A DNA stretch of 38,582 bases from Gammaproteobacteria bacterium (GTDB lineage: Bacteria; Pseudomonadota; Gammaproteobacteria; Steroidobacterales; PWYM01), in assembly GCA_007693855.1 (NCBI GenBank), contig RECU01000023.1, positions 1 through 38,582 on the forward strand. The letters run 5' to 3'. Below are positions 20,663 through 36,891 of this stretch, piece after piece. Below the pieces are notes generated by a model. It was not told where the DNA came from. It made no database searches and was given only the letters and a program-made list of their open reading frames with translations. The position numbers were made by a program, and so were the translations under genes. Numbering within the stretch: the first letter of the stretch is position 1; every line of letters starts with the position of its first letter.

Positions 20663-21754
20663 TCAGACATTGAACCGGAAATGCATCACGTCGCCCTCGC
20701 GGACGATGTACTCCTTGCCCTCCAGGCGCAGCCGCCCGGCCTCCTTCGCGCCCTGCTCGCCGTGGTGGGCGATGTAGTCGTCATAGGCGATCACCTCGGC
20801 GCGGATGAAACCCTTCTGGAAGTCGGTGTGAATCTCGCCGGCGGACTGCGGTGCGGTGGCACCGACCCGCGTGGTCCAGGCCCGGACTTCCTTCTCGCCG
20901 GCGGTGAAAAAGGTCTGTAACCCGAGCAGGCTGTAGGCGGCGCGGATCACGCGATGCAGACCCGGCTCGTCCTGGCCGAGCTCGGCCAGGAACTCGGCCT
21001 TGTCGGCCTCCTCCAGCTGGGCGATCTCGGCTTCGATGGCCGCGCACACGGCAACCATCTCCGCACCCTCGCGGGCGGCCAGCGCGGCCAGCCGCTCGAG
21101 GTAGGCGTTGTTCTCGAACCCGTCCTCGTTGACGTTGGCCACGTACATCACCGGCTTGGCCGTCAGCAGATGCAGCTCCTTGAGCCAGGGACGCTCCGCC
21201 TCCGAGGTCTCGGCGGTGCGCGCCGGCAGGCCCTCGGCCAGGTGATCATGCAGACGCTTGAGGAAGTCGCGCTTCAGGAGGGCCTCTTTCTGCCCGGTCT
21301 TGGCGGTTTTCTCGGCGCGCTGCAGGTTGCGCTCGACAGTCTCGAGATCGGCGAGCGCGAGTTCGGTATTGATCACCTCGGCGTCGTCCACCGGGTCTAC
21401 CCGGCCCTCGACATGGATCACATCGTCGTTCTCGAAGCAGCGCACCACGTGCGCGATCGCGTCGGTCTCGCGGATGTTGGCCAGGAACTGGTTACCCAAC
21501 CCCTCGCCTTTCGAGGCGCCCTTCACCAGGCCGGCGATATCCACGAACTCCACCGTCGTGGGCAGGATCCGCTGTGGATGGACGATATCCGCCAGCGCCT
21601 GCAGACGCGGGTCGGGCACCGGCACCACCCCGACATTCGGGTCGATGGTGCAGAACGGATAGTTCTCGGCGGCGATCTCGGCCGCAGTCAACGCGTTGAA
21701 CAGGGTGGACTTGCCGACGTTCGGCAGCCCGACGATCCCGCATTTGATTCCCAT
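20663..21754 (-). CDS. ychF: Redox- and ribosome-associated ATPase YchF (Obg family)
   Basis: A 363-residue protein, exactly the usual YchF/OLA1 length. GLPNVGKST at 9-17 is the P-loop, followed by [11 protein letters not shown], the switch [17 protein letters not shown], and VRCFEND. A coiled coil is inserted before the C-terminal TGS domain, which contains [18 protein letters not shown] and [10 protein letters not shown]. YchF prefers ATP over GTP, binds the ribosome and influences the oxidative-stress response. In many gammaproteobacteria it sits directly downstream of pth. Here pth is about 12 kb upstream on the same strand, and an extended -10 promoter lies just before ychF. The ATG at 21754 opens directly on the conserved [13 protein letters not shown]. 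Confidence 0.97.
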
Positions 21755-21848
21755 GATCCTGCCTTGCTTGGGTTTACCGATGGGCTGTGCGATGCTCCGG
21801 ACACTGGCCGCACAGCGGCCGGAGTCGCCTGCCCGACCGAGGCGCGCG

Positions 21849-21857
21849 ATTGTAGCA
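21849..21857 (-). promoter_or_regulatory. Extended -10 promoter for ychF
   Basis: On the minus strand the sequence reads TGCTACAAT: a near-consensus -10 (TACAAT) preceded by the TGn extension. It lies about 95 bases upstream of the ychF ATG. No convincing -35 is visible, as expected for extended -10 promoters. Confidence 0.5.
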
Positions 21858-21922
21858 GTTCGTCCGCCCTGCCCGCGTGGCCGGCGGTCGACTCAGCCAC
21901 GGGGCAACCTGGAGGGGGAAAC

Positions 21923-22807
21923 ATGTTTCAGAAGGATCTGTTGCAGGGGAAGCGCTTCCTGGTCACCGGCGGGGGGACCGGACTCGGCAAGACCATGACC
22001 GAGCATTTCGCCGCCCTCGGTGCCGACGTGGTCATCTGCGGCCGGCGCGAAAACAAACTCGTCGAGACGGCCGAAGAAATCAACGCGCGCGGCGCCGGCC
22101 AGGTCAGCATCCGGGTGCTGGATATCCGCGACCCGGAAGCGGTGGATGCCGTCATGACCGCCGTCTTCGCCGAAGGCCCACTCGACGGGCTGGTCAACAA
22201 TGCCGCCGGCAATTTCATCAGCCCGACCAAGGACCTCTCGCCGCGCGGCTTCGACGCGATCGCGAGCATCGTCTTCCACGGCACCTTCTACGTCACCCAT
22301 GCCTTCGGCAAGCGCCTGATCGAGGCCGGCCGCAAGGGTTCGATCCTCTCGATCACCACCACCTGGGTATGGAGCGGCTCGCCCTTCGTCGTGCCCTCGG
22401 CGATGTCCAAGGGCGCGGTCAACATCATGACCAAGTCGCTGGCCGCCGAGTGGGGGCGCTATGGCATCCGGGTGAACTGCATCGCCCCGGGCCCCTTCCC
22501 CACCGAAGGCGCCTCGGCGCGGCTGTCACCGGGCAAGATGATCGGCGACGGCGATTACACCGATGATATTCCACTCGGGCGGGCCGGCAAGCTCGAGGAA
22601 CTCGGCCACCTGGCCGCCTACCTCATGGCCGATCAGAGCGAGTACATCACCGGCCAGACCATCGCCATCGACGGTGGCTCGATGCTCGGTGGCAACGGCG
22701 GCACCTTCTGGGGGCTGCAGAAGCTCTCCGACGACGACTGGGAAAACATCCGCAACATGATCAAGTCGGCCAACCAGAAGGACAAGGCGGCGCGCAGCAC
22801 CGGCTGA
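21923..22807 (+). CDS. SDR-family 2,4-dienoyl-CoA reductase (DECR-like)
   Basis: A 294-residue short-chain dehydrogenase. The cofactor loop is TGGGTGLGK at 15-23, and NNAAGNF lies at 92-98. The active-site stretch is VPSAMSKGAVNIMTKSLA, in which Lys163 is kept but the usual Tyr of YxxxK is Ser159. This is the pattern of mitochondrial-type 2,4-dienoyl-CoA reductases, as is the rest of the block: AAEWGRYGIRVN, PGPFPTEGASARL, and the unusual extended C-terminus ending near WENIRNMIKS. It should reduce 2,4-dienoyl-CoA intermediates with NADPH during beta-oxidation of unsaturated chains. A long GGAGGGGGAA ribosome site precedes the ATG at 21923. It diverges from ychF and converges on the CoA-transferase gene. 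Confidence 0.87.
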   Translation: MFQKDLLQGKRFLVTGGGTGLGKTMTEHFAALGADVVICGRRENKLVETAEEINARGAGQVSIRVLDIRDPEAVDAVMTAVFAEGPLDGLVNNAAGNFISPTKDLSPRGFDAIASIVFHGTFYVTHAFGKRLIEAGRKGSILSITTTWVWSGSPFVVPSAMSKGAVNIMTKSLAAEWGRYGIRVNCIAPGPFPTEGASARLSPGKMIGDGDYTDDIPLGRAGKLEELGHLAAYLMADQSEYITGQTIAIDGGSMLGGNGGTFWGLQKLSDDDWENIRNMIKSANQKDKAARSTG

Positions 22808-22820
22808 GTCTGCCGCCGGG

Positions 22821-24002
22821 TCAGTGTGCGACGCCCGCCTCGCGCAGCCCGGTGATCGCCGCCGGCGTGAACCCCGCCTCGGTCAGCACCGCATCGGTAT
22901 GTTCGCCAAGCCCCGGGGCATCATGCCGATGCACGGCAGGTGTGCCACCGAAGCGCAGCGGGTGACGCGGCAGGCGGATCCGCCCGGCGGCGGGATGCTC
23001 AGTCTCGACCAGCGTGGCGTTGTGCACGATCTGCGGCGCCTCATGCAGATTCGCCCGCGTGTTGACCACACTGAAGGGCACCTCTTCGGCGACCAGGCGG
23101 GGCGCAAGGTCAGCAACCCGCCATTTCGCGGCCTCGGCGTCCAGCGTCTCCACCAGCGCCATGGCGTTTTTCATGCGTGCGGCCAGCGTCACGAAGCGCT
23201 CGTCGGTGAGCATGTCCTCGCGCCCATAGGCCCGGCAGATGCCGGCGAACTCCTTCTCGGAGACCGACAGAATCACCATCTCGCCGTCGACCAGTCGGGT
23301 GATCCGATAGATCTCGCCGAGATTCGGCAGTGGCGGTGAGGGATCGTCCACCAGCGTGTGGTTCCACATCGCATCCGGCCACAGAAAGGCCACGCCGGCG
23401 TCGAGCATGGAAAGCCTGAGATGCTGCCCACCCGCGCCTCGCTGCCGCGCATACAACGCGGCGGTGATGCCCTGGGCCGCCATCAACGCCGTACTCTTGT
23501 CGCAGACCAGCGTGCGCATGATCCGGGCCTCAGTCCCCAGCCCCCGCTGGGTGTCGCAGTAGCCGGCCGCGGCCTGGATCAGCGGATCGTAAACGCGCTT
23601 GCTCGACTCCGGGCCGTCCTGACCGAAGCCATAGACCGAGGCGTAGATCACCTCCGGATTCACTGCACGCACGGCTTCGTAGTCCACACCCATGCGCTCG
23701 ACCGCACCGGGCCGGAAGTTCTGCACCACGACGTCAACGCAGCGTGCGATCTCCAGCAGCACCTCGATCCCCTCAGGCCTGGAAAGATCCAGCACGACCG
23801 AGCGCTTGTTGCGGTTGGCGGCAAGGAACAGCGCGGCCACGCCCTGGTGGAGCTTGCCGAGCTGGCGGGTGATGTCGCCCGTGCCGGGCGGCTCCACCTT
23901 GATGACATCGGCACCCTGGTCGGCCAGCACCTGCGTGGCCAACGGGCCGGAAATCACCGCACTCAGATCCAGCACCCGCACCCCGTGCAACGGTCCGTTC
24001 AT
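22821..24002 (-). CDS. CaiB/BaiF family (class III) CoA-transferase
   Basis: A 393-residue class III CoA-transferase. The N-terminal GVRVLDLSAVISGPLATQVLADQGADVIKVEPP motif family block is present, NFRPGAVERMGVDYEAV follows, and the catalytic Asp is Asp139 in RVYDPLIQA. These enzymes move CoA between acids, or act as CoA-linked racemases (AMACR type), which share the fold. The Asp139 context fits a transferase. A poly-G ribosome site precedes the ATG at 24002. It is the last gene of a minus-strand run whose other members cleave, oxidise and activate a carbon skeleton, so it probably activates or exchanges an acid from that pathway. The donor and acceptor are unknown. Confidence 0.9.
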   Translation of the reverse strand: MNGPLHGVRVLDLSAVISGPLATQVLADQGADVIKVEPPGTGDITRQLGKLHQGVAALFLAANRNKRSVVLDLSRPEGIEVLLEIARCVDVVVQNFRPGAVERMGVDYEAVRAVNPEVIYASVYGFGQDGPESSKRVYDPLIQAAAGYCDTQRGLGTEARIMRTLVCDKSTALMAAQGITAALYARQRGAGGQHLRLSMLDAGVAFLWPDAMWNHTLVDDPSPPLPNLGEIYRITRLVDGEMVILSVSEKEFAGICRAYGREDMLTDERFVTLAARMKNAMALVETLDAEAAKWRVADLAPRLVAEEVPFSVVNTRANLHEAPQIVHNATLVETEHPAAGRIRLPRHPLRFGGTPAVHRHDAPGLGEHTDAVLTEAGFTPAAITGLREAGVAH

Positions 24003-24041
24003 CGCATCCCCCCAAGCTGAAGAAACACCTCACATCGGCAG

Positions 24042-24656
24042 CTACCACCCTCCGCGGGTGAGCCATTCATCGACGAGCGCGAGCCGGTCGGCACCCCACC
24101 AGAGCTCGCCATCGACCGCGAACGTCGGTGTCCCCCAGACACCGCGCGAGGCGGCGTACTCGGTGGCCGCCGCGAGTTTGCCCTTGAGTGCGGCTGTGCC
24201 GAGCGCCGCGCGCAGGGCGGCGCCATCCATGCCCACCCGGGCGGCCTCCGCCGCCACGGCCTCAGGCGCGGACAGGTTCCGCGCCTCGCCAAAAGTGGCC
24301 CGATACACGTTTTTCGCAAACTGTCGCGCAGCGACAGGATCGCGTTCGTCGATCCACAGAAAGGCCCGTTCGGCGGCCAGCGGATTGAAATCGAGCACGC
24401 TCACCGGATCGTAGGGCAGGTCGAAGTAACGCGCCATGCGCGGCACGTCCTGGCGGAAATACTCGCCCTTGATCGGCAGCAGAAAAATCGGCGTATCGAT
24501 ACCGAGTTTCTCCTGCACCAGGCCGCGCATGAAGAACACCCGCCAGCGCACCTCACGACCATGTTTTTCAGCCAGCGCATCGATACGCGTGCTCGCGTAG
24601 TACCCGTAGGGCGAAATGAAATCGAAGAAAAACTCGATCGGCCTGGCCGCCGCCAT
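24042..24656 (-). CDS. 2-hydroxychromene-2-carboxylate isomerase family (DsbA/GST-kappa fold)
   Basis: A 204-residue thioredoxin-fold protein with FFFDFISPYGYYAS at 9-22. It has the SPY triad, with Ser15 in the glutathione-activating place, rather than a CxxC disulfide motif. The C-terminal GVWGTPTFAVDGELWWGADRL block is typical of HCCA isomerase / kappa-class GST. NahD-type enzymes use glutathione to isomerise a naphthalene intermediate; many relatives occur in unrelated CoA or aldehyde pathways. It starts two bases before the aldehyde dehydrogenase stop, so the genes are tightly linked. With no ring-cleavage dioxygenase here, I read it as a glutathione-dependent cis-trans isomerase or transferase of unknown substrate. 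Confidence 0.88.
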   Translation of the reverse strand: MAAARPIEFFFDFISPYGYYASTRIDALAEKHGREVRWRVFFMRGLVQEKLGIDTPIFLLPIKGEYFRQDVPRMARYFDLPYDPVSVLDFNPLAAERAFLWIDERDPVAARQFAKNVYRATFGEARNLSAPEAVAAEAARVGMDGAALRAALGTAALKGKLAAATEYAASRGVWGTPTFAVDGELWWGADRLALVDEWLTRGGW

Positions 24657-24658
24657 GG

Positions 24659-26146
24659 CTATTTCTTGATCTCGCGGCGCAGCGTCGCCTTCAGGCGTTC
24701 GCCGTAAGGCGGACGCAGGCCCGCAAGCTTCGCGAGATTGAAGCGACTCTGGCGGAACACGCTCTTGGCGTGACTGAACTCCCGAAAGCCATCGATCCCG
24801 TGGTAGACGCCCATGCCGCTGGGACCGATGCCCCCGAAGGGCAGATTTTCCTGGCCGACATGCCAGATCACGTCATTCAGGGTGACCCCACCGGAGACCG
24901 TGGTGTCGAGCACCTGGCGCTCCTCGCCGCGGTCCTTGCCGAAAAAGTACAGCCCAAGCGGTCGCGGCCTTGAGTTGATGAACTCGATCGCCGCGTCCAG
25001 CGAGTCGTAGCCCAGCACCGGCAGCAACGGTCCGAAGATCTCGTCCTGCATCACCGCGAGACCGGGATCGGGCTCCACCAGCAGCGTGAGTGCCATGCGG
25101 TGCCGGGCCGCCTCGTCCAGGCGCTCGCCTGCAGGATTGACCTCGCGGATCGTCGTGCCCGCCGCGCGCGCCTCGTCGAGATAGCCTCGCAGCCGCCGGA
25201 CATGACGCTCGTGGATCACGGAGGTGTAGTCGGGGTTACCCGCGATCGTGGGATAGAGCTCGCCCGCCACGCGCATGATGCGCTCCACCAGCGCGTCGCG
25301 CTGGGCCCGTGGCACCAGCACGTAGTCCGGCGCGAGACAGATCTGCCCGGCATTCATCATCTTGCCGATCACCAGGCGTTCGGCGGCGGTGTCAAGATCG
25401 GCATCGGTGCCGATCACCACCGGCGACTTGCCGCCGAGCTCCAGCGTGAGCGGCACCAGGTTCTCGCTGGCCGCACGCATGACGTGCCGGGCGACCGAGG
25501 TGGCGCCGGTGAACAGCAGGTGATCGAAGGGCAGCGCACTGAAGGCCTCGCCCACCTCGGGCCCGCCGGTGAACACGGCCACCTCGGTCTCGTCGAAGTG
25601 TGCCGCAAACAGCTCGGCCATCACCTCGGAGGTCGCGGGCGTGTATTCCGAAGGCTTGATCATCACCGCGTTGCCGGCGGCAAAGATGCCGGCCAGCGGC
25701 GTGAACGTCAGCGTGACCGGAAAATTCCACGGGCTGATCACACCGACCACGCCCTTGGGCTGGTATTCGACGTGCGCGCGGGCTCCGAACAGACCCATCG
25801 GAAACTCGGGCTTTCTGCGCTCTGGCTTCATCCAGCGGCGCAGGCTTGCCGCGGCGTGTTTCAGCGGCTTGACCGAGCCCATGATGTCGGTCACCCGGGA
25901 CATGTCGCGCGAGCGGCCGGCAAAGTCGGCATCCATCGCCTCGACCAGCCGCTCGCCATGGTCCACCAGCAGGGCGACGGCGCGGCGCAGCCGGTCGATC
26001 CGGCGCTCGGCGGGCACGGGCAATGCAGCCGCTACCGCGGCGCGCTGGCGCTCGAGTGTCTCGCGCATGGCCTGGGCACTCTCGCCACCGGCAGACTTCG
26101 CCGCCGCAACGGAAGCCTCGGCCGGCTGTTCGGACGCTGCGCTCAT
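24659..26146 (-). CDS. Aldehyde dehydrogenase, coniferyl-aldehyde-dehydrogenase-like
   Basis: A 495-residue NAD(P)-dependent aldehyde dehydrogenase. ISPWNFP at 137-143 and IKPSEYTP at 163-170 form the cofactor cleft, Glu236 lies in ELGGKSP, and the nucleophile Cys270 lies in NAGQICLAPDYVLV. The QICLAPDYVLV block is typical of the membrane-anchored or coniferyl aldehyde group, which oxidises bulky aromatic or isoprenoid aldehydes. An unusually Ala-rich leader precedes the catalytic core at about residue 27. It follows the carotenoid/stilbene oxygenase gene by only 17 bases, so it is well placed to oxidise the aldehyde released by that enzyme. GAGGAG precedes the ATG at 26146. Confidence 0.92.
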   Translation of the reverse strand: MSAASEQPAEASVAAAKSAGGESAQAMRETLERQRAAVAAALPVPAERRIDRLRRAVALLVDHGERLVEAMDADFAGRSRDMSRVTDIMGSVKPLKHAAASLRRWMKPERRKPEFPMGLFGARAHVEYQPKGVVGVISPWNFPVTLTFTPLAGIFAAGNAVMIKPSEYTPATSEVMAELFAAHFDETEVAVFTGGPEVGEAFSALPFDHLLFTGATSVARHVMRAASENLVPLTLELGGKSPVVIGTDADLDTAAERLVIGKMMNAGQICLAPDYVLVPRAQRDALVERIMRVAGELYPTIAGNPDYTSVIHERHVRRLRGYLDEARAAGTTIREVNPAGERLDEAARHRMALTLLVEPDPGLAVMQDEIFGPLLPVLGYDSLDAAIEFINSRPRPLGLYFFGKDRGEERQVLDTTVSGGVTLNDVIWHVGQENLPFGGIGPSGMGVYHGIDGFREFSHAKSVFRQSRFNLAKLAGLRPPYGERLKATLRREIKK

Positions 26147-26163
26147 GCTCTGCTCCTCGGCGA

Positions 26164-27567
26164 TCAGGCCGGCGGGGACAGGCCCTCCGCCCAGTTGGCG
26201 TGGAAGCCGTTGGGCACCCGGGTCGGGATATGGATCCTGGCGACAGGATCGGCTGCCGGTTGCGCGGCATCGAGCACGACCAGGCTGCTCTTCCCCTCTG
26301 CCGTCACGAAAGCCATGACGTAGCCGTCGGTCTCGCTCTCACCATGCGGCACGAACACCGGCTCGCCGGCATTGGCATCCTCGCCGTAGTCGTGCAGCAC
26401 GACCTCGCCGGTGTCGAGATCGAAGCGGGCGGTGGCATTGTAGCCGTGGTATTCGCTCTGCTTGGCCATGGTACTCGCTGCGGCATAGCCATAGCGGTAG
26501 CGCTGGCCACAGCGGCGATCATCGACGCGCGTGAACTCGCAGAAGAGCTCGTCGACACACTCGTTGCGGATTTCACCGGTCGCGGTATCGAGCGTGAGGC
26601 GATACAGGCGCCGCGGCTGTGACTCCACGCCCGTGCCCATCTCCATGGCGAACGGCAGCTTGGCAATCCAGACATAGTCGATGACGATACGACTGCCGTC
26701 CTCGAAGCCGTTGCAGAAGTGCCAGCTGAAAAACGGCTCGGCTTCGAACCAGCGCGCAGCGCCGCCGGCGCGTGGGATCACGCCGATCTTCATCGGCAGG
26801 TCCTCGCGCCATTGCATGGGGAACTTCCCCTGCATCAGCAGCGCGGGGTTGGTGACCACCGGCGCGCAGAAGATCACCACGTGGTTCCGAGTGATCTGCA
26901 GGTCGTGGATGATGCCCTTCCAGGGCAGCGCCGCCTCGATGCTCCTGACATGCCGGCCGGCCCGGTCGAACACCTGGACGATGTACAGCGGCCGGTCGAA
27001 TGGCTGTGAGCAGGTGATCATCTCGCCGGTGTCCGGGCAGACTTTCGGGTGGGCCGAGAGGTTGTCGCCGGGTTTCAGCAGCCCGCCGGCGGAATACGGC
27101 CCGACGGTGTCCAGTGCCGGCGTCAGCTCGTGCGGCCAGCCACCCTCCCAAAGCGCGAGCAGGTGTCCGCCGTGCTGGAGGATATTGGTATTCGCGGTGT
27201 TCTTGTAGGGACTGGGATCGCCGCCATCACGAACAATCTCCCCCGGCACCGGCAGCGGTCGGCCGATGCTGCCGTAGATGCGCCGTCCGGCACGGCGCTC
27301 GGCCTTGAGCGCCGGGGTATGCACCCAGCGGTTGCGGTAGTGCACCCGGCCGCCGTCGAAATACACGCCGTGCACCATGCCGTCGCCATCCAGCGGGTAG
27401 ACGTAGTGGTTGGGCTCGTAGGCCGGATTCGGCCCATTGCGCAGGAACGCGCCCTTGAGCGTGTCCGGCACACGCCCCTCGATCCGCAGCTGGTCATGGG
27501 TCCAATCGCACTCTTCGGCGACCGGCGCGTAGTTGCCCTGCAGATAGGGAAAACGACTGAGATCCAT
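26164..27567 (-). CDS. Carotenoid oxygenase family (carotenoid or lignostilbene cleavage)
   Basis: A 467-residue non-heme iron oxygenase of the carotenoid cleavage family. The four iron-binding His residues are visible: His173 (SAHPKV), His221 (IIHDLQIT), His283 (WHFCNGFED) and His456 (GFHANW). The family opening FLRNGPNPAYEP and DGDGMVHGVYF is present. Members split a conjugated C=C bond with O2 into two aldehydes or ketones; bacterial ones act on apocarotenals or on lignin-derived stilbenes. No signal peptide is seen, so it is cytoplasmic. GGGGGAGGT precedes the ATG at 27567. Neighbouring aldehyde dehydrogenase and acyl-CoA synthetase genes suggest the products are oxidised and activated. 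Substrate cannot be decided from sequence. Confidence 0.92.
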   Translation of the reverse strand: MDLSRFPYLQGNYAPVAEECDWTHDQLRIEGRVPDTLKGAFLRNGPNPAYEPNHYVYPLDGDGMVHGVYFDGGRVHYRNRWVHTPALKAERRAGRRIYGSIGRPLPVPGEIVRDGGDPSPYKNTANTNILQHGGHLLALWEGGWPHELTPALDTVGPYSAGGLLKPGDNLSAHPKVCPDTGEMITCSQPFDRPLYIVQVFDRAGRHVRSIEAALPWKGIIHDLQITRNHVVIFCAPVVTNPALLMQGKFPMQWREDLPMKIGVIPRAGGAARWFEAEPFFSWHFCNGFEDGSRIVIDYVWIAKLPFAMEMGTGVESQPRRLYRLTLDTATGEIRNECVDELFCEFTRVDDRRCGQRYRYGYAAASTMAKQSEYHGYNATARFDLDTGEVVLHDYGEDANAGEPVFVPHGESETDGYVMAFVTAEGKSSLVVLDAAQPAADPVARIHIPTRVPNGFHANWAEGLSPPA

Positions 27568-27632
27568 GGCACCTCCCCCGAGACGGCCAGACCGAAAGAC
27601 CGCGCCCCCAGCGCAGCCCACCGAAAAACAGA

Positions 27633-29261
27633 TCAACCTGTCTGCTTTTGTACCATAACGGCTTCCAGCGTGACACGCGCCTCGCGGTAGTCGGCCTTGC
27701 CGTTGGCGCCGCGCGGCACCTCGGTAGTGAACACCACGCGCTTGGGGGTCTTGTAATCGGCGAGCAGCCCCCGGACATGCTCGCGCAGCGCCTGTTCAGA
27801 GGCCTCCGCGCCTTCGCGCAGCTGCACCAGAGCGTTGACGCTCTGGCCCCACTGGGGATCGGGCAGCCCGACCACCAGCGCATCGGCCACGGCCGCATGG
27901 GCCTTCAGGGTCTCCTCGACCTCCTCGACGTAGACTTTCTCGCCACCGGTATTGATGACCATGTTGCCGCGGCCGAGCAGGACCAGCGTGCCGTCGGCCT
28001 CGACCCGGGCCTGGTCGCCCGGCATGGTGTAGCGCACGCCGTCGATCTCGGGAAACGTCCGCGCGCTTTTTTCCGGATCCTTGTAATAGCCCAGCGGCAC
28101 CGGGCCGGAGCGGGCGATGTAGCCGGTCTCGCCGCTGCCGGGCGTGACCTCGCGGAAGTCCTCGGTGAACACCTTGACGTTCTGGCCGAGCATGAACTTC
28201 GCCGCGGCAGGCGGCGCCTGGACCGTGCTGACCGACATGCCGAACCCGGTCCCCTCGGACGAACCCAGCGCATCCATCAGCATCAGCTGCGGGCACTGCT
28301 CGAGCAGCGCCGCCTTGACCGGCGGACTCCACATCACGCCGGTGGACACCACCGTGCGCAGCGCCGAGAGATCGTAGGCACCGGGCGCCTGTTGCATGGC
28401 CTCGACCAGCGGCCGGGCAAAGGCATCGCCCACGATGGAGATGGCGTTGACCTTGTGCGCCGCCAGGGTCTCCAGCGCCCTGGCCGGATCGAAGCGTCGC
28501 CCGCCGAGGGTCACCACGCAGCCGCCCTGCAGCAGCGTCATCAGCGCGGTCATCAGCCCCGCGCCGTGCATCAGCGGCGACAGCGGCATCTGCCGGGCAC
28601 GGAACGGGGCGGCCGCGACGTTGGCGACATGCGCCTCGAGATCGGCCGGGGGCGGGATATTCAGCACCGGGTTGCCACCGCCGCCGAGCGTGTACCAGAG
28701 ATCTTCCTGGCGCCACATCACGGCCTTGGGCATACCGGTGGTGCCGCCCGTATAGATGAACAGCAGGTCATCCGGCGAGCGCTCGACGTCGAGCGGCGAG
28801 GCGTCGCCGGTGATGGCCAGGGTGTCGTAGTCTGCCGCGTAATGCGCGGGGGCGTCGTCCGGCCCACGCACCTCGATCCAGTCTTCTACGGCGACATCGG
28901 CCTCGCGCAGGCCTGCGACCTCCTCGGCGAACTCGGCTGCGAACACGATGGCCCGGGCGTCGGAGTTCTCGATGATGTATTTCAACTCGCCGCGACGGTA
29001 GCGGTAGTTGATATTGACGTGCACCAGGCGCGCCTTGAACAGCGCGATCACCGTCTCGAGATATTCCGGACAGTTGCGCAGGTACACGCCGATCTTGTCC
29101 CCCGGCTGCGCGCCGGTGGCGAGCAGCGCGCGCGCCAGGCGATTGCTGCGGGCGTCGAGCTCGCCCCAGCTGATCATGCGGTCTTCGTGAATCAGTGCGG
29201 GCGCACCGCCCGGCACGACCTGCGCCAGCCCGTCGAACAGGTCACCGAAATTCCAGCTCAT
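27633..29261 (-). CDS. Acyl-CoA synthetase (AMP-forming), FadD3/FadD19-like
   Basis: A 542-residue ANL-family adenylating enzyme. The phosphate loop YTGGTTGMPKAVMWRQED is at 170-187, SSEGTG binds AMP, and GDQARVEADG and GRGNMVINTGGEKVY form the hinge. The C-terminal catalytic Lys lies in PRGANGKADY. The KAVMWRQED variant recalls ligases of steroid or branched side-chain degradation (FadD3/FadD19 type), so a bulky acid substrate is likely. It forms the acyl-CoA thioester from ATP, CoA and acid. The ATG at 29261 has a poly-G ribosome site. It lies 65 bases before the oxygenase gene on the same strand and probably activates the acid that the oxygenase and aldehyde dehydrogenase generate. Confidence 0.92.
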   Translation of the reverse strand: MSWNFGDLFDGLAQVVPGGAPALIHEDRMISWGELDARSNRLARALLATGAQPGDKIGVYLRNCPEYLETVIALFKARLVHVNINYRYRRGELKYIIENSDARAIVFAAEFAEEVAGLREADVAVEDWIEVRGPDDAPAHYAADYDTLAITGDASPLDVERSPDDLLFIYTGGTTGMPKAVMWRQEDLWYTLGGGGNPVLNIPPPADLEAHVANVAAAPFRARQMPLSPLMHGAGLMTALMTLLQGGCVVTLGGRRFDPARALETLAAHKVNAISIVGDAFARPLVEAMQQAPGAYDLSALRTVVSTGVMWSPPVKAALLEQCPQLMLMDALGSSEGTGFGMSVSTVQAPPAAAKFMLGQNVKVFTEDFREVTPGSGETGYIARSGPVPLGYYKDPEKSARTFPEIDGVRYTMPGDQARVEADGTLVLLGRGNMVINTGGEKVYVEEVEETLKAHAAVADALVVGLPDPQWGQSVNALVQLREGAEASEQALREHVRGLLADYKTPKRVVFTTEVPRGANGKADYREARVTLEAVMVQKQTG

Positions 29262-29343
29262 GGCATCCCCCCCAGGATAGTTTTCGTGTGTAACGTCCTC
29301 GCGTCGCACTGAACAGAAACAGAGGTCTTCCCGCCAACCACAT

Positions 29344-29754
29344 TCAGGGCGTGGACGCACCCCGCTCCAGCAGCGGCGCGGTTCGCTCGAGGTACACCTG
29401 CCCCCTCTCGCGGACAGTGTTGGCGTCGACGTCCTCCGAGGCCACATGCACCTCTTCCAGAATCTCCGCGATCTCGACCACTTCCAGGCTGAGCCGCGCG
29501 ATCGCATTCTCGAGCGTATAGGTCAGACGGTGGATGGTATCCAGGTCACGCGCATCCAGCGTCTCCTGGGCGAGCAGCGCCGCCAGCTGGCTGTTATGCG
29601 ACTGCAGATGGGTCAGTGCCGCCTGCAGCGAGTCGGCCGCGAGGCCCTGATAGTGGCTCGGCATGGTCTCGGCCGCAGCGGGCAAGGGGTAACTCGCCAT
29701 GGCGAGCCCAAGCAGCTTGCACACCATGAGCGCATGAATCGTTGGCACAGACAT
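29344..29754 (-). CDS. Small exported helical protein (DUF6746-like)
   Basis: A 136-residue protein with a cleavable signal peptide: a hydrophobic stretch ending in PAAAET near residue 29. The mature part is almost all helix, with IHRLTYTLENAI, LEEVHVASED and VYLERTAPLL, and no Cys or heme motif. It resembles the small periplasmic DUF6746 proteins, a recollection I hold with modest certainty. Function is unknown; a four-helix bundle is the likely fold. GGGAG precedes the ATG at 29754. It lies between the synthetase and GST genes on the same strand with gaps near 80 bases. Why a periplasmic protein sits in this catabolic block is unclear. Confidence 0.72.
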   Translation of the reverse strand: MSVPTIHALMVCKLLGLAMASYPLPAAAETMPSHYQGLAADSLQAALTHLQSHNSQLAALLAQETLDARDLDTIHRLTYTLENAIARLSLEVVEIAEILEEVHVASEDVDANTVRERGQVYLERTAPLLERGASTP

Positions 29755-29832
29755 GTGATCTCCCAGGAAGTGAATCCGTGTTGGAGAGATCGAGTATAGC
29801 GGCCCGCACGGCGTCGGGCACCCCCGGCAGCC

Positions 29833-30552
29833 TCAGCGCTGCTTGAACGCCGGCACATCCCCGCGCTTCTGGGTATAGAGCACCCGCTTGGCCTCCTCCG
29901 GAATATCCCCCGGCGTCAGCGCCGTCTCGGCCTGCAGGGCATGACCCCGCTGCACGGCCTCGCGCGCCCCCATGCGCTCGAACCAGCGCTTGAGATTGGG
30001 GCAGGCCTCGAGATCCTGGCCGAGCTTCTCGGCCAGCGTGATCCAGCCCCACAGCGCCATGTCGGCGATTGAATAGGTGTCGTTGGCCAACCAGTCCTCG
30101 CCCTCGAGCTGGGCGTCGAGCACGCCCCAGAGCCGGGCGAGTTCATTGGTGAAACGCGCGATGGCGTAGGGCAGCTTCTCGGCGGCGTAGTGGCCGAAGT
30201 GAAACACCTGGCCCGACATCGGGCCGATCCCGCCCATCTGGAACATCAGCCACTGCAGCACGCGCGCTCGCGCGAAGGGCTCCGTGGGCAGAAACCGGCC
30301 GGTTTTCTCGGCGAGATGGATGAGAATGGCACCGGACTCGAACAGCGCCAGCGGCTGCCCGGCCGGGCCGATGACGTCGTGATCGACGATCGCCGGCACC
30401 CGGTTGTTCGGGCAGATCTGCAGGAACTCCGGTGCGAACTGCTCACCCTTGCCGATATCGACGGGAATGACCCGGTATTCCAGACCGCACTCCTCGAGCA
30501 TGATCGCCACCCGCCAGGTGTTCGGTGTCGGGAAATAGTAAAAATCGATCAC
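29833..30552 (-). CDS. Glutathione S-transferase family protein (YfcG/Ure2-like)
   Basis: A 239-residue GST. The N-terminal thioredoxin domain carries FPTPNTWRVAIMLEE (Thr/Asn near residues 9-11), NNRVPAIVD with the cis-Pro, and LFESGAILIHLAEKTG. The all-helical C-terminal domain contains YSIADMALWGW. These features match nu-class, YfcG/YghU-like GSTs, which act as glutathione-disulfide reductases more than classical transferases. It starts with GTG at 30552, eight bases after AAGGA. It belongs to the minus-strand run with a second GST-like gene. Glutathione chemistry fits the kappa-type isomerase downstream and the oxygenase in the same block, which would generate reactive aldehydes. Confidence 0.9.
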   Translation of the reverse strand: MIDFYYFPTPNTWRVAIMLEECGLEYRVIPVDIGKGEQFAPEFLQICPNNRVPAIVDHDVIGPAGQPLALFESGAILIHLAEKTGRFLPTEPFARARVLQWLMFQMGGIGPMSGQVFHFGHYAAEKLPYAIARFTNELARLWGVLDAQLEGEDWLANDTYSIADMALWGWITLAEKLGQDLEACPNLKRWFERMGAREAVQRGHALQAETALTPGDIPEEAKRVLYTQKRGDVPAFKQR

Positions 30553-30612
30553 TCGCGGTGTCCTTGTGCTGTGTAGATCGGCCGCTGGGCGCGGCTGCCT
30601 GCGGGCCGTCGC

Positions 30613-31395
30613 TCAGAACTGCAGCGGCAGCGCGAGATGCTCCCGATAGATGCGGTCCCGGTGCGCGATCAGCGCAGGATCCAGCGCCTCGGCCGCGGGG
30701 CCGAACACGTCCTCATACAGCGCGCGGATCTGGGTCGGCATGGGGTTGTCCGCCTCCGGCAGCGGCTCGACCATGTTGGAAAAGGCCGCCCAGTAGATGT
30801 CCGCGGCACTCAGCGCATCACCGACCAGGTAGGCCGATCCCGCAGCCTGCTGCGACGCGAGTCGCGCCGCAAGCATCCGGAGGATATCGGCGACGCGTTC
30901 CGGCGCACGGGCCACCTCGTCGGCCTGGACGCGATAATCCGCCAACATTCTGGCCGCCCCTGCGGGCAGCGCACTTCGATCACCCTCGAGCATGCCGTCG
31001 AACATCTTGCCGAGAATCATCAGCCGGCGGCTCCAGCCAAAGCCCGACTCCCCACAGATCTCGTTGCCGATGCCAATGCACTCGGCCCGCAGCGCAGAAT
31101 CGGTGGGCAGCAGTGATGGGCCGCTGCCGATCCGCTCGATGAGCATGAGGATATCGAGCCAGCCCACCCGCGGCGGCTCGTCCGCCCACACCGCCACCGG
31201 TGCATTGCGCACGCCAGTCCAGGCATACAGCGCGTCGTTCGACTCACCGGCCAGCTGGGCCACCGGCGTGTACTCGATCTGGCGTACGTGGCACAGCGCC
31301 TTCGCCGCCTCGCCCCATGGCGCGGGGACGCCGACAGTCAGGGCAAGACGCAGGCCGCCAAGTTCGCGGGCGCGTTCGGGGGTTTCGTAGTGCAT
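30613..31395 (-). CDS. Glutathione S-transferase-like protein, divergent
   Basis: A 260-residue protein with the overall GST layout but weak N-terminal conservation. LRLALTVGVPAPWGEAAKALCHV is the first part of a thioredoxin-like domain. NAPVAVWADEPPRVGW occupies the cis-Pro region, and YLVGDALSAADIYWAAF is the standard GST C-terminal motif. The catalytic Ser/Tyr/Cys position is not obvious (Pro-Trp in place). Function is probably in glutathione handling or structural. I chose the ATG at 31395 because AAGGAG lies nine bases upstream; the ATG at 31401 is only three bases from it. It is the first gene of the minus-strand catabolic run and diverges from the thiolase-like gene. Confidence 0.75.
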   Translation of the reverse strand: MHYETPERARELGGLRLALTVGVPAPWGEAAKALCHVRQIEYTPVAQLAGESNDALYAWTGVRNAPVAVWADEPPRVGWLDILMLIERIGSGPSLLPTDSALRAECIGIGNEICGESGFGWSRRLMILGKMFDGMLEGDRSALPAGAARMLADYRVQADEVARAPERVADILRMLAARLASQQAAGSAYLVGDALSAADIYWAAFSNMVEPLPEADNPMPTQIRALYEDVFGPAAEALDPALIAHRDRIYREHLALPLQF

Positions 31396-31522
31396 GCGCA
31401 TGGGCTCCTTGGCAGCGGGTGGCGGGTGGCGCGTTGCACTGCGACTGGCGCCGCCAGCGTCTCTGGGCTCAGTGCATCATAATCAAATTCCCGACAGCCC
31501 GATCACTGGTGGACACTCTCCA

Positions 31523-33067
31523 ATGCACCGACTCAACGCCACCACCCCCGTCATCGTCGGCGCCGGACAACTCACCCAGCGCGAGGGCGATCCACAGCAG
31601 GCCCTGGCGCCTATGGCGCTGGCCGCCGAAGCCGCGCGACTTGCCCTGGCCGACAGCGGCGCGGGGACGGCACTGACAGCGCAGCTCGACAGTCTCGTCG
31701 TGACACGGCTGTTTTCGGACTCCACCCCTCGCCGGGCACACGGTCATGGCCGCGCGGACAATCCCCCGGGTGCCGTGGCGGCGCAACTCGGGGCCACCCC
31801 CCGCTCGCGGCTCTACGCGGAAATCGGCGGTAACACCCCGCAGAAATATCTCCACCTCATGGCCGAGCGCATCCGCCGGGGGGAGGCGGCGGCCGTACTG
31901 CTGACCGGCGCGGAATGCATGGCGACAGCACGTGCCGCCGTGCGCGCAGGCCTCACACTCGACTGGCAGCGTCATGATGCGGGTGAGTTCGAGGACCGCG
32001 GCTTCGGTGAACGGCTGGTCACGCCGCACGAACTGGCCCACGGCCTCGGGATCCCGATCAACACCTACCCGCTGTTCGAACAGGCGCTGCGGGCCGCGCG
32101 GGGCTTGAGCGTGCAGGATCACCTCGTCCGCATGGGCCGCCTGCTCGCCTCGCTCAATGCCGTGGCGCGACACAACCCCCATGCAGCCTGGCCTTCACGC
32201 CTGGCGGCTGACGCGCTGGTCACGCCCTCAGCGCAGAACCCCTGGCTGGGCTTTCCCTATACCCGCCTGGTCAACGCCCGCGACAACGTCGACCAGGCGG
32301 CTGCCCTGGTCCTGACCTCGGCAGGACTGGCCCGCGAACTTGGCATCGCGGCCGAGCGGCAGGTATTCCTGCACGGCGCCTGCGATCTGAACGACAGGAT
32401 GCTCATGCTTGATCGCGTGGACTACGCGCGAAGCCCAGCCATGGCACGCACCGGGCAAGCGGCACTGGCGATGGCGGGGCTCGGCCTGGATGACATCACC
32501 TGGTTCGACCTCTACAGCTGCTTCGCCTCGGCCGTGGAGATCGCCTGCGAGTCGCTGGGCCTGGCCGAGGACGACCCGCGTGGGCTCACGCTGACCGGCG
32601 GGCTGCCGTTCTTCGGTGGGCCCGGTAACAACTACTCGATGCACGCGCTGGTGGAGGCCGTCACCCGCCTGCGAGAGGCCCCGGAGACCTATGCGCTGGT
32701 CACAGGCAACGGCGGGGTGCTCTCCAAGCACACCGCAAGCGTGCTGTCGGCGCGGCCACCGCACCGGCCCTGGCAGCCCCCCGATTCACGACGCCTGCAG
32801 AGCGAGATCGACGCCGAGGCCGCTCCGCCGGTGACGGAGACCCCTGAGGGAGAGGCGCGCATCGAGACCTGTACCGTCATGCACGGCCGCGAAGGGCCGC
32901 AACTCGGGATCGTCATCGCCCGACTGCTGGACTCCGGCGCACGCTTCGTCGCCAACACGCCGGCCGGCGATCCCGCCGCCTGCCAAGCCCTGATGACGGA
33001 CGACGCCATCGGCAGCCGCGGGCGGGTAAGCCCTCAGGACGGGCGCAATACCTTCATCCCTCACTGA
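31523..33067 (+). CDS. Thiolase-like protein (acetyl-CoA acetyltransferase family, TLP type), no active-site Cys
   Basis: A 514-residue thiolase-fold protein. TPVIVGAGQLTQREGDP opens it, RIRRGEAAAVLLTGAECM follows, then WFDLYSCFASAVEIACESLGL and GGLPFFGGPGNNYSMHALVEA with the conserved His. At the place of the nucleophile Cys (NxxCGSG) the sequence is GGNTPQKY. The C-terminal CxG is GNGGVLSKHT, so both catalytic Cys are absent. About 90 extra C-terminal residues (ETPEGEARIETCTVMHGREG) form an added domain, as in bacterial TLP/SCP2-thiolase-like proteins. Such proteins are often found with acyl-CoA metabolism of bulky or steroid-like chains, where they may work in partnership with other enzymes. 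GGTGGA precedes the ATG at 31523. It diverges from the GST genes. Confidence 0.87.
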   Translation: MHRLNATTPVIVGAGQLTQREGDPQQALAPMALAAEAARLALADSGAGTALTAQLDSLVVTRLFSDSTPRRAHGHGRADNPPGAVAAQLGATPRSRLYAEIGGNTPQKYLHLMAERIRRGEAAAVLLTGAECMATARAAVRAGLTLDWQRHDAGEFEDRGFGERLVTPHELAHGLGIPINTYPLFEQALRAARGLSVQDHLVRMGRLLASLNAVARHNPHAAWPSRLAADALVTPSAQNPWLGFPYTRLVNARDNVDQAAALVLTSAGLARELGIAAERQVFLHGACDLNDRMLMLDRVDYARSPAMARTGQAALAMAGLGLDDITWFDLYSCFASAVEIACESLGLAEDDPRGLTLTGGLPFFGGPGNNYSMHALVEAVTRLREAPETYALVTGNGGVLSKHTASVLSARPPHRPWQPPDSRRLQSEIDAEAAPPVTETPEGEARIETCTVMHGREGPQLGIVIARLLDSGARFVANTPAGDPAACQALMTDDAIGSRGRVSPQDGRNTFIPH

Positions 33068-33107
33068 ACCCCCTCGCGACAGCGCCCCGAGAGATACCAC
33101 CTCAGGC

Positions 33108-33914
33108 CTAGCGCCCCTCGAACCGCGGCGCGCGCTTCTCCAGAAACGCGCTGATGCCTTCGGCGAAGTCCGCGGTATCGCCCAGTTCGCCCTGTGCCTC
33201 GGCCTCCAGCGCGAGCTGTTCCGCGAGGCTCGTGCCCTGGGAGGCGGCGACCAGGGTCTTGATGCGACGGAACGCCCGCGTGGGGCCGGTGGCCAGGCGC
33301 GCGAGCAGCGACTCGGTATGCGGCGCGAGCTCGTCGTCATCGACGCAGGCCCAGATCAGCCCCATCGCGGCGGCCGCTGTCCCGTCGAGCGGCTCACCCA
33401 GCAGCATCAGCCCGAGCGCCCGCGCATCACCCACGCGTCGCGGCAGCGCCCAGCTGCAGCCGAGATCCGGCGCGAGTCCGAGCCGCGGGCCGAACACCTG
33501 CACGAACGAGGCCGAGCGGGCGGCGACCACGATGTCGCCGGTCAGGGCGAGACCGACGCCGCCACCGGCGGCGACACCGTTGACCGCCACCACCACGGGG
33601 ACCGGCAGCCCACTCCACGCCTCGATCATCGGGTTGTAGCGGGTGACCAGGCGCCGGGCGATGTTCTCGCCGCGGCTCAGCGAAGGATCGGCCGGCAGGT
33701 CGCCGGCGGCGAGATCCGCCCCGGAGCAGAACCCGCGGCCTTCGGCCCGCAGCAGCACCGCGCGCACCGTGTCGTCCTCGCCGATCCGCGTGGCCACCTC
33801 GCGCAGCTCGTCGATCATCCGCCCGTTCAGCGCATTCAGCGACGATGGTCGCGCCAGCGTCACGCGCACGGCGCCGTCAGTCGCCTCGTAGCGCAGCGTC
33901 GCGAAGTCGCTCAT
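33108..33914 (-). CDS. Enoyl-CoA hydratase/isomerase family, PaaG-like
   Basis: A 268-residue crotonase-fold protein. The oxyanion loops are GFCSGADL at 61-68 and [10 protein letters not shown] near 115. Both catalytic Glu residues of true hydratases are missing: the first is replaced by Gly in GGGVG, and the second lies in a [10 protein letters not shown] stretch without it. Instead Asp150 in [12 protein letters not shown] matches the catalytic Asp of PaaG-type isomerases, and [13 protein letters not shown] also follows PaaG. It should shift a double bond or open an epoxide in an acyl-CoA. Its ATG overlaps the pth stop codon by four bases (ATGA), so it is translationally coupled to pth, an unexpected partner. 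No other paa genes are present. Confidence 0.88.
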
Positions 33915-34531
33915 CCGCCGGTCGCCTCCGGTTTGCGGTATGGCCTGGCCTGCACGCCGCGGCTGTGCAGCTGATGCATGGCGCGCTCGGCGCCCTGGGA
34001 GAGCATCTGCTCCACCGCATCGGCGGCCTCGGCGAGACTCTCGCGAATCAGTGTCTCCTCGGCCGCCGGCGCACGGGTGAGCACGTAATCGGTCACCTGA
34101 TCGCGGTGACCGGGGTGTCCGATACCCACCCGCAGCCGCCAGAAGTCCGCGCCAATATGGCGGATAAGGTCGCGCAGCCCGTTATGCCCGCCGTGCCCGC
34201 CGCCGCGCTTGAGCCGGGCCGTGCCGGGCGGCAGGTCGAGCTCGTCGTGGGCGACCAGCACCTGCTCGGGGGCGAGCTTGAAAAACCGTGCCACGGCGCC
34301 GGCCGACTGGCCGCTCAGGTTCATGAAGGTCTGCGGCTTGAGCAGCCGCAGTTCATCGCCGACCAGGACGATGCGCACGAGCTCACCCTGGAACTTCGCT
34401 TCCATGGCGAAACGCCCGCCCGCGCGTTCAGCCAGCAGGTCGGCGAACCAGAAGCCCGCATTGTGGCGGGTCTGCTCGTAGCGGGGCCCTGGGTTGCCGA
34501 GCCCGACAATCAGTTTGAGGGGACTGCTCAT
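33911..34531 (-). CDS. pth: Peptidyl-tRNA hydrolase
   Basis: A 206-residue peptidyl-tRNA hydrolase, near the usual length. [22 protein letters not shown] contains the catalytic His23 region, [12 protein letters not shown] and [11 protein letters not shown] carry the conserved Asn and Asp, and [12 protein letters not shown] binds the substrate. It releases tRNA from peptidyl-tRNA that drops off the ribosome and is normally essential. The start at 34531 is set by the conserved opening; the upstream frame to 34708 shows no family match and holds a vapC remnant on the other strand. In many gammaproteobacteria ychF follows directly. Here a PaaG-like gene follows with a four-base overlap and ychF is about 12 kb away. 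Confidence 0.96.
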
Positions 34532-34610
34532 GGGACGGGAGTGTAGCTGAACGGGCGCGGTGACCGGATCGACAACCGCAGCGCAAGGCACTCTGCAGCG
34601 CGACGGCGGG

Positions 34611-34715
34611 CGTATGCTGGCTGTCCTGCATGGCGGTCGTCTGGTCACCTTCGACCGCAACATTCCGATGGCCGCCGCAGAGGGCGCCGAGGCCCAGCAT
34701 CTCGTCACCCTGTGA
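34611..34715 (+). pseudogene. VapC-type PIN-domain toxin, C-terminal fragment
   Basis: In the 296-base gap between pth and the alpha/beta-hydrolase gene, the plus strand reads [14 protein letters not shown] and then [18 protein letters not shown] before a TGA at 34713. This is the C-terminal end of a VapC/PIN-domain toxin, with the last acidic residue of the nuclease site (FDR). The upstream part of the gene, with the other catalytic Asp residues and the antitoxin gene, is missing: upstream codons (from about 34563) show no PIN similarity and pth is transcribed the other way. It is a dead remnant about 33 codons long. The rest of the gap shows nothing I can assign beyond the ribosome site GGGAG before 34828. 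Such remnants mark past insertion or deletion. Confidence 0.7.
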
Positions 34716-36865: not shown

Positions 36866-36891
36866 GGCCACGCTCCCCGTTGCGCCATCGG

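Follow-up and report, generated by a model that had tools for sequence, protein, structure and literature searches.

A predicted alkene-cleaving oxygenase cassette between pth and ychF in a Steroidobacterales genome

Gene content of the locus

The window, the whole stretch of DNA that was analysed, comprises 38,582 nt of contig RECU01000023.1 from assembly GCA_007693855.1 (Gammaproteobacteria bacterium; Steroidobacterales; PWYM01), here termed genome G000. The record names of the sister MAGs resemble sample labels and suggest that its genus comes from soda lakes. The locus consists of a run of five genes on the minus strand: an AMP-forming acyl-CoA ligase (27633..29261); a four-His Fe(II) oxygenase of the RPE65/CCO family, predicted to cleave alkenes (26164..27567); a class-3-type aldehyde dehydrogenase (ALDH, 24659..26146); a protein of the kappa-GST/2-hydroxychromene-2-carboxylate (HCCA) isomerase type (24042..24656); and a class III CoA-transferase (22821..24002). 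The genes are separated by gaps of 65, 17, 2, and 39 nt, and all five show the codon-position GC of coding DNA. Open reading frames, family matches, and the spacings of 17 and 2 nt confirm the gene set and placement given by an earlier, sequence-only reading of this DNA.

The neighbours named in that reading are likewise present, two of them below their model cut-offs: a DECR-like short-chain reductase (SDR; 21920..22807, plus strand; PRK07677, 243.6 bits, cut-off 318) and a PaaG-like enoyl-CoA hydratase/isomerase (33108..33914, minus strand; TIGR02280, 264 bits, cut-off 345). A TLP1 thiolase-like protein with an additional C-terminal domain is encoded on the plus strand (31394..33067; PF18313, 65.9 bits; 4egv, 347.9 bits). 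Between the ligase and TLP1 lie three further minus-strand genes, for a DUF6746 protein (29344..29754; PF20531, 125 bits), a glutathione transferase (29833..30552; PF02798), and a divergent GST C-domain protein (30613..31401; PF00043, 26.7 bits, cut-off 20.7). The top NCBIfam match of the glutathione transferase is a GSH-dependent disulfide bond oxidoreductase, below cut-off (NF010579, 231 bits, cut-off 332). The borders of the interval are pth (33911..34708, minus strand; TIGR00447, 206.9 bits, cut-off 100), whose domain begins near 34513, and a gene that we take to be ychF (20663..21754, minus strand), with orthologues of 73–96% identity in seven of the eight genomes searched. Beyond pth, a 3-hydroxybenzoate-monooxygenase-like flavoprotein and a StyD-like ALDH are found at 35681–38415, both below their family cut-offs. 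A promoter scan yielded one site compared with 1.0 expected, i.e., chance level. Twelve terminator-like sites (5.8 expected) were set aside because all lie within genes or at gene edges.

The oxygenase

The oxygenase matches PF03055 with 400 bits and retains all four iron His and all three second-shell Glu residues of the RPE65/CCO family, whose fold is a seven-bladed propeller; the carotenoid-family oxygenase predicted 17 nt from an ALDH is thus borne out. Its open reading frame starts with TTG at 27636, but the true start is most likely the ATG at 27567 (MDLSRFPYLQ), as relatives show matching sequence words at, or close to, the beginning of their proteins. The nearest solved sequence is Synechocystis apocarotenoid-15,15'-oxygenase (ACO, 2biw; 206 bits). 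The oxygenase scores 233.8 bits with the NCBIfam model for lignostilbene dioxygenases (LSD; cut-off 800) and 306.4 bits with NF052295, the model for 8'-apo-carotenoid 13,14-cleaving dioxygenases (cut-off 675).

The AF2 model (pLDDT 90.8) gives Z-scores above 45 with both ACO and LSD. The structural comparison proposed earlier as a way of telling the two apart ends in a tie at the level of the fold—45.6 for ACO and up to 46.6 for the stilbene enzymes. The key residues of LSD4 are Phe59, Tyr101, and Lys134, as given in PMC8191317. At the aligned places the window oxygenase carries Leu, Ile, and Trp, and hence the stilbene triad is absent. This Trp, located before the first Glu, is the Trp149-type residue of ACO. 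Tyr and Lys occur together in 7 of 96 alignment rows, which are exactly the seven rows of the stilbene clade, and all four labelled stilbene-type rows retain both. Among the 31 rows from the sister loci described below, 30 feature Trp and none Lys; the exception, L056_1 (Glu), falls outside the clade.

The tree was computed from these 96 rows by a quick method and midpoint-rooted, with several long branches including that of ACO, which has no firm position, and with NOV1 in neither tree nor alignment; it places the window oxygenase with those of Halieaceae and Microbulbifer (SH-aLRT 100; identity 54–59%) and outside the stilbene clade (SH-aLRT 100). Seven of 80 loci (L074, L076, L089, L094, L109, L111, and L126) gave no stop-free piece of at least 380 aa and were dropped. 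Among more distant relatives, the best plasmid-borne oxygenase (Martelella, 43% identity) has no cassette partner beside it, and a relative of 43% identity in G186 is accompanied by no other window gene on its 9.2 kb contig.

The partner enzymes

The ALDH (PF00171, 275 bits) had been described as coniferyl-type, which does not hold: the nearest solved ALDH is the steroid aldehyde dehydrogenase Sad (9nxl; 448.8 bits, 47% identity), and the next match scores 312 bits. With the model of benzaldehyde dehydrogenase MdlD, it reaches 322 bits at a cut-off of 550.

The ligase comprises an AMP-binding domain (185 bits) and a C-terminal domain (67 bits), and starts with an ATG at 29261 preceded by a G-rich run. 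Of the FadD3/FadD19-like synthetase proposed earlier, the ligase class stands, but by its scores the protein is neither FadD3 (165 bits, cut-off 657) nor CasG, which we take to be a FadD19-type steroid ligase (170 bits, cut-off 750). The NCBIfam subfamily PRK07798 fits, with 671.7 bits at a cut-off of 543.

The kappa-GST-type protein (PF01323 DSBA, 117 bits) contains no cysteine at all and hence no CxxC disulfide motif in its DSBA fold. Its top solved matches are HCCA isomerases (3fz5, 129 bits; 2imd) and GSTK1, so that the isomerase expected 2 nt past the ALDH is found in both class and spacing. The CoA-transferase (PF02515, 341 bits) is closest among solved structures to succinate-HMG CoA-transferase (191 bits), and the viral contigs searched contain no relative of it.

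Distribution within the genus

In the sister MAG G001, gene order is unchanged from the oxygenase through the ALDH and the isomerase-like gene to the CoA-transferase, at 88–91% identity; of its ligase, the last 66 residues are present at a contig end (95% identity). Its preservation in G001 indicates that the arrangement is not a product of chance. In G004, a third genome of the genus, the ALDH is reduced to 12 codons on a contig of 3,029 bases. The ALDH step would therefore be dispensable in G004 or the module would be decaying there, an assembly error being another possibility. A search at E ≤ 1e-100, in which 14 of 26–27 candidates in these draft MAGs were scored, returned no ligase in G004 and no further piece of it in G001. 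Within the order, the isomerase-like protein occurs at an identity of at least 89% in 3 of 97 genomes, all three from the window genus.

The pth–ychF interval is a variable slot that houses the cassette. The two genes lie less than 40 bp apart, as measured between match ends, in G048, G013, and G006, and 8–12 kb apart in G000, G002, and G003, with differing contents in the latter two. An SDR 77% identical to that of the window adjoins ychF in G003, a genome without the oxygenase module. The oxygenase occurs together with a 68–69% orthologue of the thiolase from the sister cluster and a 47–48% Rieske relative in G000, G001, and G004; at those identity levels, all three are missing from G002 and G003.

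The oxygenase cluster of Halieaceae and Microbulbifer

Sister loci were counted over 26 loci (L050–L073, L075, and L105; 14 with full 10 kb flanks) and compared with 52 control loci of other oxygenases; the window-genus loci L049 and L074 were excluded. A thiolase is present in 25 of the 26, an OB-fold protein in 25, an SDR in 24, and a Rieske oxygenase in 20, compared with none of the control loci. The sister clade is thus fixed in a catabolic cluster that is strongly conserved and differs from the window cassette. No description of this cluster was found in the open-access literature searched, and five terms looked for in a Halieaceae genomics paper (PMC10100682) do not occur there.

A Sad-like ALDH lies near the oxygenase in 3 of the 26 sister loci and in none of the 52 controls; these ALDHs, 52–55% identical to that of the window and 8–10 kb from the oxygenase, come from three of four Microbulbifer loci. 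The fetched flanks of the other 23 hold no relative at 40% identity or above. PRK07798-type ligases (38–40%) and TLP1 relatives (40–42%) lie 9–13 kb from the oxygenase in Seongchinamella and 24–29 kb in HTCC2148; TLP1 relatives in that identity range are near it in Halioglobus NAT121 as well. The sequence-only reading had staked its pathway on co-occurrence across genomes. This holds within the genus, where G001 keeps the order, but not for the ligase and isomerase beyond it: in the fetched flanks of the 26 sister loci, the window's ligase, isomerase, and CoA-transferase have no counterpart that reaches 40% identity. Among the genomes searched, the set is limited to one genus, which refutes the earlier proposal in part; the Microbulbifer ALDHs, the PRK07798-type ligases, and the TLP1 relatives speak against a full refutation.

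The F420 gene cofD is found in 25 of 26 Halieaceae/Microbulbifer carriers (24 above cut-off), whereas the three oxygenase carriers of the window genus gave no match. The two pathways are hence predicted not to be the same, and F420 was rejected as a shared feature for the window genus.

Proposed function and alternatives

The cassette may cleave an isoprenoid-type (terpenoid- or apocarotenoid-like) C=C bond to an aldehyde, which would be converted to the acid, activated with CoA, and passed to β-oxidation-like steps—a plausible, though tentative, reading of the genes. The oxygenase would add O2 across the alkene and release carbonyl fragments, at least one of them an aldehyde, as its family and intact Fe site suggest. 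The Sad-like ALDH would oxidise this bulky aldehyde with NAD(P)+, and the ligase would form the acyl-CoA, with the CoA-transferase as a candidate for a second or recycling activation. The kappa-GST-type protein would provide glutathione-dependent double-bond isomerisation. The DECR-like SDR, the PaaG-like isomerase, and TLP1 could, less certainly, serve in double-bond reduction or shift and in chain cleavage. The logic of cleaving, oxidising, and activating had been put forward before and is supported by enzyme classes, order, and spacing. The enzyme families are known; for their combination no description was found in the open-access literature searched, in line with the earlier remark that no such pathway was known.

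Alternatively, the slot could gather unrelated cargo of which only some genes cooperate. Its variable length and contents, the lack of a conserved set outside the genus among the genomes searched, the deletion of the ALDH in G004, and the SDR of G003 speak for such an assembly. The tight spacing of five genes on one strand, their conservation in G001 together with functional coherence, and the independent presence of a related ALDH near the same oxygenase clade in Microbulbifer argue against it, and we consider it unlikely.

Still less probable is a broader version of the isoprenoid reading, according to which the window and the Halieaceae/Microbulbifer clusters would be two versions of one undescribed aerobic pathway: a distinct oxygenase clade would cleave an isoprenoid or sterol side chain, neither carotenoid nor phenolic stilbene, straight to the aldehyde for a Sad-type dehydrogenase, with the marine version being F420-linked and the soda-lake version not.

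Catabolism of lignostilbenes or stilbenoids, in which a phenolic stilbene would yield benzaldehydes, then benzoate through the ALDH and benzoyl-CoA through the ligase, is improbable. The partial LSD and MdlD scores, a whole fold that matches LSD and NOV1 as well as ACO, and the flavoprotein and StyD-like ALDH beyond pth are compatible with it. Stilbene cleavage, one of the substrates considered earlier, is nevertheless disfavoured because the pocket triad is absent and the tree places the oxygenase outside the stilbene clade, and the route was rejected on these grounds; the LSD cut-off is also far off.

Carotenoid tailoring, with the oxygenase producing retinal or apocarotenals for a pigment or rhodopsin and the ALDH the acid, would have a purpose other than catabolism. 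It draws on ACO as the nearest solved sequence, with the same Trp, but conflicts with the CoA-dependent catabolic neighbours in the window and in the sister clade and with a score below the apocarotenoid equivalog cut-off, and is very doubtful.

Highly unlikely is a steroid or sterol side-chain route, in which the oxygenase would open a side-chain alkene (e.g., Δ22) and the Sad-like ALDH oxidise the C22-type aldehyde: the nearest solved ALDH and the thiolase with a ChsH2-type OB pair, present in the sister cluster and in G000 (C61), point to it, but cleavage of an isolated alkene would be unusual for the carotenoid-oxygenase family, and the Rieske protein matches Ring_hydroxyl_A with no KshA-named model among its matches. 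The partly annotated Rieske-rich regions C41, C29, and C25 of G000 contain no steroid model above cut-off, one C41 ligase reaching 232 bits with CasG (cut-off 750). Halieaceae do include an isolate reported to grow on cholesterol (PMC5790920), but the sister-clade thiolase, inspected by eye, retains Cys at the nucleophile place, unlike Sal/Ltp2, which are said to be without it (PMC8399759).

Comparison with known systems

Bacterial oxygenases of the carotenoid family are usually named to stilbene or carotenoid cleavage. The clade described here lacks the stilbene pocket, falls below the apocarotenoid cut-off, and is embedded in a conserved marine catabolic cluster on the one hand and in a different, presumably soda-lake, cassette on the other. 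Identification of its substrate would extend the known routes for degrading isoprenoid-type matter and supply a new biocatalyst for alkene cleavage.

The Halieaceae/Microbulbifer cluster resembles the window in its same-clade oxygenase, its ALDH and SDR classes, and, in some genomes, a ligase and TLP1 nearby. It features in addition the Rieske oxygenase, the thiolase with its OB partner, 2-oxoacid dehydrogenase E1/E2 (in about half), and genomic F420 genes, none of which is present among the window ORFs scanned. The bile-acid Sal–Sad module of Pseudomonas stutzeri Chol1 and Comamonas shares the Sad-type ALDH (47% to 9nxl) and, with loci related to that of the window, the thiolase-like and OB-fold proteins. 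It differs in that the candidate aldehyde maker of the window is an alkene oxygenase and not a retro-aldolase. LSD4, TMY1009 LsdA, PbLSD, and NOV1 share fold (Z 45.9–46.6) and Fe site, whereas the window oxygenase is without their Phe/Tyr/Lys phenol pocket and outside the clade of lignostilbene dioxygenases, in a tree that does not hold NOV1. ACO features the same four His, three Glu, and the Trp preceding the first Glu; it is approximately 30% identical, sits on a long separate branch, and differs from the window oxygenase in that the latter has CoA-dependent catabolic partners.

The five-gene run and its genomic slot

The five-gene run lies on the minus strand at 22821-29261 and consists, in order, of a ligase (27633-29261), a carotenoid-family oxygenase (26164-27567), an aldehyde dehydrogenase (ALDH; 24659-26146), a kappa-GST/HCCA-isomerase-type protein (24042-24656), and a CoA-transferase (22821-24002). 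The first gap along the run, between the stop codon of the ligase and the ATG of the oxygenase at 27567, is 65 nt; the next three are 17, 2, and 39 nt. The oxygenase ORF as listed opens at a TTG 69 nt upstream of this ATG. The ATG itself, the likely start, is preceded by a G-rich run and begins the peptide MDLSRFPYLQ, and the same words are found at or near the starts of the relatives' oxygenases. ORF calls and family matches confirm the coordinates and spacings of the sequence-only reading, whose observation of an oxygenase next to a dehydrogenase, a ligase, and an isomerase was correct and whose pathway logic is sensible.

The cassette occupies a variable slot between ychF (20663-21754) and pth (33911-34708). 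Judged by match ends, the two border genes are less than 40 bp apart in G048, G013, and G006. The distance is 12.2 kb in the window and, in two further genomes of its genus, 9.0 kb (G002) and 8.2 kb (G003). The slot contents of G002 and G003 differ from those of the window, except for the DECR-like reductase (SDR; 21920-22807), which is kept in G003 (77%). The stretch 21754-33911 is a variable insertion slot; the three genomes in which pth and ychF are neighbours come from other families within the order. Beyond pth, the window carries at 35681-38415 a 3-hydroxybenzoate 6-monooxygenase-like flavoprotein (289 of 459 bits) adjoined by a StyD-like ALDH (490 of 850 bits).

Conservation was assessed in 97 genomes: five belong to the genus (the window's own, G000, included), and the others to the same order. 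Only G000, its sister MAG G001, and G004 have the isomerase-like protein at 89% or above and the CoA-transferase at 90% or above; matches elsewhere are at 35-41% and about 40%, respectively. The oxygenase is found at 90% or more in the same three genomes, the G004 copy being a 223-residue piece; the G004 contig stops within the gene. The ligase is complete in G000 only; in G001 a contig end carries the final 66 residues of it, and no further piece was found in G001 or G004 at E <= 1e-100, with 14 of 26-27 candidates scored in these genomes. In the 26 sister-clade genomes (Halieaceae/Microbulbifer), the best relatives reach 48% for the ligase and 34% for the isomerase. From this distribution, the combination as seen is genus-level, its conservation being limited to one genus among the 97 genomes. 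On its 3,029-base contig, G004 retains, as read by eye, 12 codons of the ALDH from its start and end. This remnant (L034:2311-2361) lies between the oxygenase and the isomerase-like gene and, also by eye, is joined across a short shared stretch.

The oxygenase

A PF03055 match of 400 bits places the window oxygenase squarely in the RPE65/CCO family; all four His and all three Glu are conserved in the alignment, and the predicted model is confident (pLDDT 90.8). The best solved sequence match is apocarotenoid-15,15'-oxygenase (ACO; 206 bits), followed by PbLSD (182), NOV1 (160), and LsdA (158); the solved chains behind the match names are 5v2d, 5j53, and 6ojr. In a whole-fold comparison with the model, ACO and lignostilbene dioxygenase (LSD) tie, so the fold cannot decide between them. 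Phe59, Tyr101, and Lys134 are described as key phenol-binding residues of the stilbene enzymes (PMC8191317), and the window oxygenase has Leu, Ile, and Trp at these places. In the labelled stilbene-type rows of the alignment, Tyr and Lys are present in 4/4 and Phe in 3/4. Among the 31 sister-locus rows (L049, of the window's genus, and second copies counted), 30 have Trp and none has Lys at the Lys place; the sole non-Trp row, L056_1, is placed outside the clade.

A tree of 96 sequences was built by a quick method with a midpoint root; the branch of ACO in it is long. It groups the oxygenases of the window and of Halieaceae/Microbulbifer into a single clade of 31 rows (SH-aLRT 100) and places the stilbene rows in a separate clade of seven (SH-aLRT 100), identical with the seven Tyr + Lys rows. 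With this pocket and this placement, the stilbene option of the sequence-only reading is not supported. G000 has a second carotenoid-family oxygenase (C18:62147-63499, L001), which scores 428 bits and is about 37% identical to that of the window; a Met is aligned at its first second-shell Glu place, beside a gap, and may be misaligned there.

The aldehyde dehydrogenase

The nearest solved relative of the ALDH is 9nxl, named as a steroid aldehyde dehydrogenase (Sad), at 449 bits and 47% identity versus 312 bits for the runner-up, and the former assignment as coniferyl-type gives way to Sad-like. In bile-acid degraders, Sad is described as acting on the C3-side-chain steroid aldehyde, which it oxidizes (PMC8399759). 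Microbulbifer L052, L054, and L073 each have an ALDH relative (52-55% identity) no more than 10 kb away from the oxygenase; these three loci are close kin and together count as about one event. None was found near the oxygenase in the other 23 sister loci or in the 52 loci of other oxygenases.

Halieaceae/Microbulbifer clusters

The genome scan retained 80 of 109 loci and relied on two degenerate peptide patterns, which implies undersampling. Two loci are of the window's genus, 26 have oxygenases at 54-58% identity, and 52 at 43% or less, leaving an identity gap between the latter groups. Neighbourhoods were counted by ORF clustering in the 26 loci and a control search at 40% identity over 60% of length. 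The sister loci carry an SCP2-type thiolase (25/26), a ChsH2-type OB-fold protein (25/26), a SnoaL-like protein (24/26), an SDR (24/26), a curcumin-reductase-like MDR (23/26), a Rieske oxygenase (20/26), a molybdopterin oxidoreductase (19/26), ABM (18/26), and, in about half, 2-oxoacid dehydrogenase subunits (E1/E2; 13-15/26); each is found in 0/52 of the other-oxygenase loci. No description of this strongly conserved catabolic cluster (L050-L073, L075, L105) was found in the literature searched; it lies outside the window and is the most interesting lead.

In wider stretches of four genomes, the oxygenase is accompanied by PRK07798-type ligase, LLM-type, and TLP1 genes, at a distance of 9-13 kb in Seongchinamella and of 24-29 kb in HTCC2148. 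These ligases are 38-40% identical to the window's, the HTCC2148 one reaching 485 of the 543 cut-off. HTCC2148 also has two tandem, more distant carotenoid-family oxygenases (L186:13129-16004), which are 31% identical to that of the window. They are located about 14-17 kb away from the first oxygenase, and further Rieske genes adjoin them.

Two Microbulbifer carry a second oxygenase copy (49-53% to the window's) with F420 synthesis genes downstream (L183:13896-19678, L185), named in L183 as CofD, CofC, CofGH, and NpdG. CofD is found in 25/26 sister genomes, 24 over the cut-off; the genome search gave no CofD match in G000, G001, or G004, and CofD is present in G003, a genome without the oxygenase module.

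G000 itself has a thiolase (70%) and OB-fold (55%) pair of sister-cluster type on contig C61 and a Rieske relative on C18. A thiolase (68-69%) and a Rieske relative (47-48%) are common to the three oxygenase-bearing genomes and were not found at those levels in G002 or G003. This co-distribution across five genomes is suggestive only.

Predicted pathway

By their families, the neighbours of the oxygenase are predicted enzymes of CoA-dependent catabolism. The oxygenase would form an aldehyde, which would then be oxidized and activated with CoA. A version of this pathway acting on a sterol side chain is attractive because the Halieaceae include a cholesterol-growing isolate (PMC5790920), and is given low weight. 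The predicted substrate is isoprenoid-type, to which both the loss of the phenol pocket of the stilbene enzymes and the likeness of the ALDH to Sad point.
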